From Chlorophyllum brunneum (Eukaryota; Basidiomycota; Agaricomycetes; Agaricales; Agaricaceae), in contig OY756141.1 in NCBI GenBank assembly GCA_963576785.1, positions 682,001 through 746,000 of the forward strand: a DNA stretch of 64,000 bases, in the 5' to 3' direction. The notes beneath the pieces are model-generated. The model was not told the DNA's origin. It saw only the letters and a list, made by a program, of their open reading frames with translations, and ran no database searches. Shown piece by piece: positions 61,904-64,000 of the stretch. The number at the start of each line of letters is the position of its first letter. Positions within the stretch are counted from its first letter, which is position 1. Position numbers and translations under genes: made by a program.

Positions 61904-62697
61904 TTATATCCAAAGTTCAAGATCATCATCGGGGCCGTCGATGCTCAAAACAAACGGCGTCTCGGGAACACCGAACCTAAGTTTGGAAAGTTTGGATGGT
62001 GAGAGTTGTCCAGTTCTCCCGCCTATCGTTGACTTGTACGAAATGACAGCATCAGGATCGTCACCAATCTCAGATTCGACTTCCCACAGGAAGACTGAGT
62101 CGGTGACGACGATAGGAGAACCATTTCTAGGACGCCCGGAGACAGCAGTGTATTTCCCGCTTATTACACTCCTAATGCTATAGAGGCCTCCAAACTCTTC
62201 GATAACGAACCACTGAGGGCTGTGTTAGAATAAGTGCCCTGTGTAGAGGTTCTCAAGGCGCATCGAACTAACCTCTTGATTCTCACCACCAGTAGCCGAC
62301 CATCCGAGAACTAGCAGTGAAGGAGCATAAATTTGAGCCAACGCAGTTGTGGGTAAGAAATTTGGTATTGTAAAGGCTTACCTGTGTAGTGATCCTTGCC
62401 GGACAGATCAAAGAGCGTGTCGTCGAAATCGGCATTGACGATGCGGTATATTACTTCTTTCTGTAGCCTGAGACGTTAAAATTTGATCCAGACCCTACCC
62501 GTGTACCATGCAATCAAACTCATGAATACTCACGAGCCGGAACAACCCTGAGTTCCTATCCAGTGACTTCCTGGACGTCAAGCCCAGGCTTACACCACAC
62601 GCATGCTTGCATCACGACTTTCACATCCCCAACCCTTACCTTTATTTTCGGGTGCAGGGATATAACGCTGACCCTCACGTATCCACTCTAATGACAT
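61904..62697 (-). CDS. Small beta-trefoil (ricin-B-type fold) lectin-like protein
   Basis: Predicted 175 residues from five exons: 62697-62640, 62570-62534, 62467-62382, 62310-62273 and 62212-61904. All borders are GT-AG, introns are 60-71 nt and phases agree. From residue 38 (IYRIVNADFDDTLFDLSG) the sequence follows the first trefoil repeat of small mushroom R-type lectins. GWSATGGENQEW carries the QxW motif (72-74). Later strands YSIRSVISGKYTAVSG and FLWEVE repeat the pattern. Such proteins bind sugars and are used in defence or recognition; ligand unknown. There is no signal peptide and no catalytic chain. Exons 3-5 are solid. Exons 1 and 2 are tentative, and the chosen ATG overlaps the start codon of the divergent STAND gene. 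Confidence 0.7.
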
Positions 62698-64000
62698 GGC
62701 CAGAACGAAGCAAAGTGCAAGAAAATCGACGAGTGGTGCTACTCTCTTCTACTCCAGGAGGAAAAACAAGATCAGAAAGAATAAAGTCATCACGGATATG
62801 CCTCGCACGAAACTTGCTGTGGAATCCAAGGCCAAGTTAGCTGATCGTCGGGCATCCGGCTCTGTCTCTGCGCTGCTCCTCACAAGCCGACCCAAGACTC
62901 GAAGCAGCCATAGCAGTAGCACTCTCGTAGAATCCTGGCACGGAAAAAACCAACATCAACCGCCTGTGGACTCGCTCTCGGATGCATTGTCGAAGTTAGG
63001 GAGTCCATCAGCCGGTGACGGGAATAAGTCCAGTATTCTGTCGACCAACTTTTTCTCCAACTCGACGAGGGTGCTGGGAGTGGTCAAGGATGTGTGCGAG
63101 GCCTTCAGTGGCGTGCCTTATGTCAAGGGTTTGGCAGGACTTGTGGAGCAAATCATCGAGGTCGCCGATGTGAGTGAATCACCAGTCATGAATCAGAGAT
63201 GGCTAGAATATTCTGTGCGTTATAGCAAGTGCAGGCATACAAAGACCGATGTCAGGCCCTCGTCGATAAAGTTGTCCTCTTTTCGCAGGGTATTTTCGAG
63301 GGTTTGCTCAGCCTGTCAGGGGACGCCAGTGCAGGAGAACAACTTCAGAGCCTTGAATCAGACTTGACAGCGTTCCTTGGGTATGTTTTTCCCCATGTTC
63401 GTCTTACCAGCCCCTTATACATACATGACGACAGCGTTCTAGAAAGTATCTATGCCACTTTGAACAGTCTTACAGCCCAACGAGTCTCCTCCAGATTCCT
63501 TCGCTATGTTGCCCGTGTCGAATATTTGGAAACGCTCACCGAACAGAACAGGAACCTGGCCACATATATTCAATACTTCAATGTACGCTTTATGTTATCT
63601 GTCCCCAGGATTTATGCACATAAATGGGTTTTAGACAAGATCCAATGTCGCCATTCGCCTGGGCTTGGGTACAGGCTCGGATCATGTGAGATTTTTGGGT
63701 ATCTCTTTCGCCCTCAGTTAATCCCTGCCTATTTCTCAGAACCTCAACAGAGCATCCCGACCTGCGTCTGCGACTAAGCGCTTAATTCCTGTACCTCCAA
63801 CGCTCTACGGAAGGGACAATGAGATTGGCATTGTCACCGACCTCCTCGTAGCGTCCAATCAGCAAGTCCATTTGGCGATCCTTGGACCCGGTGGAATGGG
63901 AAAAACCTCCTTAGCCCTCTCAACCCTCACAAACGAAAAAGTCATATCCAAGTTCGAGGACAGGTTTTTCCTCCCTTGCGACAGCACCCCCTCTCTAGAA
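62696..64000 (+). CDS. STAND/NLR-type NTPase with histone H3-tail-like N-terminus (partial)
   Basis: 5' part of a gene that leaves the window; about 343 residues seen. Exons: 62696-63169, 63235-63380, 63435-63582 and 63740 onward. The last intron (63583-63739) is long and may hide a short exon at about 63635-63668. Residues 2-14 (ARTKQSARKSTSG) match the histone H3 tail at 11 of 13 positions. A basic, low-complexity linker follows to about residue 110. A helical region (about 120-256: LGVVKDVCEAFSGVPYVKGLAGLVEQI, CQALVDKVV, YVARVEYLETLTEQN) resembles the MLKL-like four-helix N-terminus of mushroom NLRs. LYGRDNEIGIVTDLL and the Walker A loop LGPGGMGKTSLAL (about 304-316) then mark an NB-ARC/NACHT-type ATPase. 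The repeat domain is expected beyond 64000. A recognition and cell-death role is inferred from the family. Confidence 0.8.

Follow-up and report, generated by a model that had tools for sequence, protein, structure and literature searches.

We found that a fungal gene of the STAND (NLR) type is predicted to begin with a nearly exact counterpart of the histone H3 tail, a feature that, judged from sequence, is real, conserved and unusual. Positions 62696..62737 on the forward strand of the window (the whole 64,000-nucleotide stretch analysed here) encode MARTKQSARKSTSG, in which 11 of 13 residues equal H3 1-13 and the two differences are T6 to S and G12 to S. The 11/13 identity stated in the original prediction is therefore what the translation of the open reading frame gives, and the presence of an H3-tail-like N-terminus on this predicted receptor gene is confirmed by the translation, by the alignment of relatives, by a genome-wide pattern search and by residue identities, which together delimit a conserved core of codons 2-10 (H3 1-9).

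When the H3 13-mer is slid without gaps along the rest of exon 1, the next-best match reaches 4/13 residues. The ninth codon before 62696 is a stop in this frame, and no ATG lies in between, so that 62696 is the first ATG of the frame in exon 1 and an upstream start within the same exon is excluded; a start in a further exon upstream is possible. Provided that the initiator methionine is removed, the H3-like residues stand at the mature N-terminus, where an N-terminal H3 mimic would carry them. The product is not itself histone H3, as it has no match to the histone fold (PF00125). Searching PDB sequences with the first 50 residues of a relative, P0004, retrieved five matches (E up to 10), all of them histone H3 or H3.3 aligned to the tail, with E values of 0.17-2.5 that are weak because the similarity is short. 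Beyond the tail lies a linker that is basic, as the tail is: across the six tailed proteins, residues 2-50 hold 15-17 Lys/Arg against 2-4 Asp/Glu. In a low-confidence structure prediction for exon 1 (mean pLDDT 50.8), no secondary structure is assigned to tail and linker as far as residue 93.

Such a start is rare in the genome, which comprises 38,908,447 bases in 14 contigs. The pattern ATG-GCN-MGN-ACN-AAR-CAR (ATG followed by ARTKQ) matched three times, in the receptor gene and in two H3 genes on contig 7, while a control pattern had no match; the pattern is blind to tails split by introns, such as that of H3 gene L003, where an intron follows K4. A crude composition estimate for eight fixed residues, which assumes generic frequencies and an assumed number of 12,000 genes, gives 1.7e-6 expected cases. 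This rarity, together with the conservation among relatives described below, disfavours a chance match. Searches of the genome with exon 1, the tail and the NTPase yielded no convincing second tailed receptor gene: exon 1 gave one stray match on contig 8 (E 0.135), the NTPase query matched its own locus alone, and the tail query is weak as evidence because the H3 genes themselves are absent from its matches.

The uninterrupted frame that begins with the tail spans 62696-63367 (223 codons). With the first splice donor put at the end of codon 158 (63169), removal of four GT..AG introns is predicted to give a single frame into the NTPase, in line with the original prediction of 158 codons that then splice into a STAND NTPase. 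All features lie on the forward strand. Exon 1 (62696..63169) would thus carry the tail, a basic and Ser-rich linker whose residues 23-112 (62762..63031) are variable and poorly conserved in the alignment of relatives, and the start of an N-terminal helical domain, conserved in the alignment and predicted, at low confidence, as structured (residues 113-158; 63032..63169). Intron 1 (GTGAGT..GTGCAG; 63170..63234), exon 2 (63235..63380), intron 2 (63381..63434), exon 3 (63435..63582), intron 3 (63583..63634), exon 4 (63635..63685) and intron 4 (63686..63739) are likewise predicted from the sequence. Exon 5 starts at 63740, occupies the window to its end at 64000 with the beginning of the STAND NTPase, including the P-loop GPGGMGKT (63884..63907), and runs on past the window in the locus we call L012.

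The NTPase matched the Pfam families AAA_16 (35.9 bits), AAA_22 (33.8 bits) and nSTAND1 (28.9 bits) above their cut-offs, with the best stretches inside residues 294-512, and we therefore assign it to the AAA_16/nSTAND1 type. NB-ARC (23.1 bits, cut-off 23.5) and NACHT (21.2 bits, cut-off 26.7) scored below theirs, and NB-ARC exceeded its cut-off in the six-frame genome search (24.6 bits). In having a STAND-type NTPase with a P-loop, the gene shows one feature expected of a fungal NLR/STAND receptor. TPR repeats follow (TPR_12 at 79.3 bits, with many other TPR matches), but in a reading frame other than that of the NTPase. In this genome the H3-like tail is followed by the basic linker, the helical domain, the NTPase and the TPR repeats, in that order. 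The NTPase frame gives 646 residues and ends in a stop at L012:2859-2861, and no stop interrupts the TPR frame between L012:2732 and 4633; by-eye inspection found no intron joining these two exon 5 frames. The frame change (L012:2732-2861) may reflect a broken copy or an assembly error, so that the gene may be broken in the assembly. Upstream of the NTPase no Pfam match was obtained, and thus no recognised N-terminal effector domain; the helical part found just weak and unrelated matches among PDB sequences, and it presumably resembles the MLKL-type bundles of basidiomycetes.

Searching for relatives with exon 1 and the start of exon 2 retrieved 5 proteins of 1084 candidates, all five starting with MARTKQ[ST]ARK, and four of them with Thr at position 6 as in H3. 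An alignment search gave the same five from at least 8000 candidates, of which 8000 were scored. Two of the three protein searches had the tail in the query and are thus biased toward tail-bearing matches. The tail-free query (residues 114-167 of P0003, in the helical part) passed four of seven candidates, namely P0003 itself, the tailed P0005 and P0004, both already known from a tail-containing search, and the untailed P0007. The tail is thus present in five of six relatives of exon 1, and its absence from all close homologues, named beforehand as an outcome that would speak against the prediction, is not what we observe. P0007 has an N-terminus that is unrelated to the tail and not basic; of the nine residues aligned in positions 11-20 it shares 3 to 7 with the tailed sequences (7 with the receptor gene), and in the helical part 29 to 34 of 46. 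It may represent tail loss, tail gain in the others, or a wrongly assigned start of P0007. The interpretation offered in the original prediction accordingly holds for an H3-like N-terminus on a STAND gene, and is tempered by this untailed relative and by the shift of reading frame that separates the NTPase from the TPR repeats.

The relatives are single-exon reading frames corresponding to exon 1, and the link between tail and NTPase is seen in this genome only. In all seven sequences Val-Ser follows directly after the end of exon 1, with divergence beyond, which fits a common splice donor and would suggest that in the relatives, too, the gene is longer and spliced. Reading exon 2 of P0006 in a shifted frame, as a candidate for the same downstream gene, gave a score reached by 0.11 of shuffles and was rejected as not significant. 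At the DNA level no relative was confirmed among 162 pattern matches in genome contigs and 152 in viral contigs.

Across the six tailed sequences (the receptor gene included), no stretch of the exon is better kept than residues 2-10, which correspond to H3 1-9 and have a mean pairwise identity of 0.94, with eight of nine columns invariant. Identity falls to 0.66 in residues 11-20, 0.62 in 21-44, 0.44 in 45-95 and 0.55 in 96-117, and the helical residues 118-158, at 0.83, also stay below the tail. When the columns of residues 2-117 were shuffled 200,000 times, a fraction of 5e-5 gave as many invariant tail columns, a value that is no clean probability since the sequences are related and the tail itself helped to find some of them. 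A, R, T, K, Q, A, R and K of the core are invariant in 6/6. Thr occupies position 6 in four sequences and Ser in the other two; position 10 is evenly split, with three Ser and three Pro; five sequences have Thr at position 11 and the sixth has Ala; Ser is constant at position 12; and position 13 is Ala in four and Gly in two. The predicted tail family therefore keeps H3 1-9 (ARTKQ[T/S]ARK, that is the K4 module with R8 and K9) without S10. The equivalents of R2, T3, K4, R8, K9, S10 and T11, all described earlier as kept, are so in the receptor gene itself; family-wide, S10 (Pro in 3/6) and T11 (Ala in 1/6) are not. The variability of position 10 argues against S10 kinases as partners and weakens a reading based purely on K9; a proline at this position would probably disturb H3K9 enzymes.

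The reading that we favour, at even confidence, is that the tail is a putative N-terminal H3 mimic to which proteins acting on H3 tails would bind or add marks, thereby tethering and gating the receptor. Removal of the methionine would expose a free ARTK end imitating H3 1-9; the protein, if nuclear, would then meet factors that handle the H3 N-terminus and bind or modify it, most likely those of the K4 class, with PHD-type readers, Set1-type writers and LSD1-type erasers as candidates; and occupancy of the tail, or a mark on it, would tether and gate the receptor. Partners of the K4 class fit the position of the tail at the very N-terminus, the invariant A1-R2-T3-K4 and the basic linker with no predicted structure. 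The genome contains 10 PHD matches and 2 Pre-SET matches (one above cut-off), which show only that possible partners exist.

Alternatively, the tail may be an integrated decoy that baits parasite or viral effectors acting on H3 tails, a change in the tail then triggering the receptor. We consider this doubtful, although a STAND NTPase and TPR repeats are present, the genome is rich in NACHT matches (at least 88 places), and putative integrated decoys in the form of CHK-2-like kinase domains are described in Sordariales NLRs in the available part of PMC12258605. No effector is known, and the nearly frozen core would suit a ligand whose partner is conserved better than a participant in an arms race; moreover, the NTPase query matched no second locus in the genome, unlike what a radiating receptor family would show. 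As these last two considerations, the frozen core and the NTPase without a close second copy, would both point to docking on H3-tail proteins, we prefer docking to a decoy. That a fungal NLR-type lineage carries an H3-tail peptide as a sensor bait, by which the receptor would directly detect interference with the H3-tail machinery, whether from parasites or from failed genome silencing, is a tentative idea; if true, it would amount to innate surveillance of chromatin-modifying activity.

It is unlikely that the tail is kept for some other reason, for example as a basic segment for nuclear import or nucleic-acid binding, its likeness to H3 being convergent. The strongly basic character of tail and linker is what such a segment would have, but the exact residues of the core are retained beyond their charge in every tailed sequence, and the match lies at the very start of the protein.

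The origin of the tail was examined at the DNA level. Over the 12 codons of identical residues, the receptor tail and H3 gene L001 share 26 of 36 bases, compared with 27.8 expected from the codon usage of receptor exon 5, and 0.90 of draws reach at least 26; L001 was the gene used for this codon-by-codon comparison. There is thus no excess DNA identity to L001, and a recent copy of an H3 gene is disfavoured. For a decoy, whose bait part would derive from a host gene, this means a strong match in protein without excess DNA identity to L001. L003 has introns after K4 and within the G13 codon, so that its exons 1-2 cover H3 1-12 and a single base of the G13 codon, and the second intron lies near the end of the similarity between tail and H3; H3 exons may have been captured long ago. 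That the receptor gene took up the 5' end of an H3 gene and that the tail is its relic, with no function as a mimic, as the nearness of this intron might suggest, is very improbable, since the base identity is no better than chance and speaks against recent capture, and a functionless piece should not remain the best-kept part. Among the H3 genes, L001 and L002 (G000:C7, ~749.5 kb and ~680.5 kb) lie ~69 kb apart on contig 7, are nearly identical over the compared stretches, and are each accompanied by an H4-like reading on the other strand. L005 (G000:C4, ~1302.8 kb) encodes a divergent H3-like protein that contains ARATARKSTGGHPPRQ and may be a centromeric H3 variant.

The SNAG domain of Snail1/GFI1-type factors is likewise an N-terminal peptide imitating the H3 tail; its sequence is just loosely H3-like and it sits on transcription factors, whereas the receptor is predicted to carry an almost exact H3 1-9 on a STAND protein. 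By its title, Chen et al. 2021 (Biochem J 478:1943) concerns H3 N-terminal mimicry that drives methyl-effector interactions, a likeness to the receptor tail. According to the available parts of the sources, SNAG domains are N-terminal in position (PMC7649360), and recruit LSD1 by mimicking the H3 tail (PMC12612597). A short H3-like motif also occurs in influenza H3N2 NS1, where ARSK engages host chromatin factors, being recognised by PAF1C and Chd1 (PMC10208167, in part); this is a viral, C-terminal motif of four residues, whereas the receptor has a nine-residue N-terminal match in a gene of the fungus itself. The Sordariales NLRs with a CHK-2-like kinase resemble the receptor in fusing host-protein sequence to a fungal NLR, but there the putative decoy is a folded C-terminal domain rather than a short N-terminal peptide (PMC12258605, in part). 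The word "histone" does not occur in the main text of PMC12258605 or of PMC9815663, and the histone mimics in the available parts of PMC10611923, PMC10208167 and PMC12612597 belong to viruses and animal regulators. Among the papers listed in searches of the literature on histone mimicry and fungal NLRs, none describes a fungal NLR that carries an H3 tail.

A conserved, near-exact H3 1-9 on a fungal STAND gene would tie an immune-type switch to chromatin readers and writers, and H3-tail antibodies used in such fungi may detect a non-histone protein. The mimic idea could be put to a direct test by means of a nine-residue peptide and H3-tail reagents that already exist.

Upstream of the receptor gene and divergent from it, frames on the reverse strand at ~61910-62470, joined by eye as spliced, read as a ricin-type beta-trefoil lectin-like piece (PF14200, 28.1 bits). 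A reverse-strand ATG at 62695-62697, which overlaps the receptor ATG (CATG), opens a 35-residue reading that begins MSLEWIREGQRYIPAPENKG; if this is the first exon of the lectin, the two start codons overlap.
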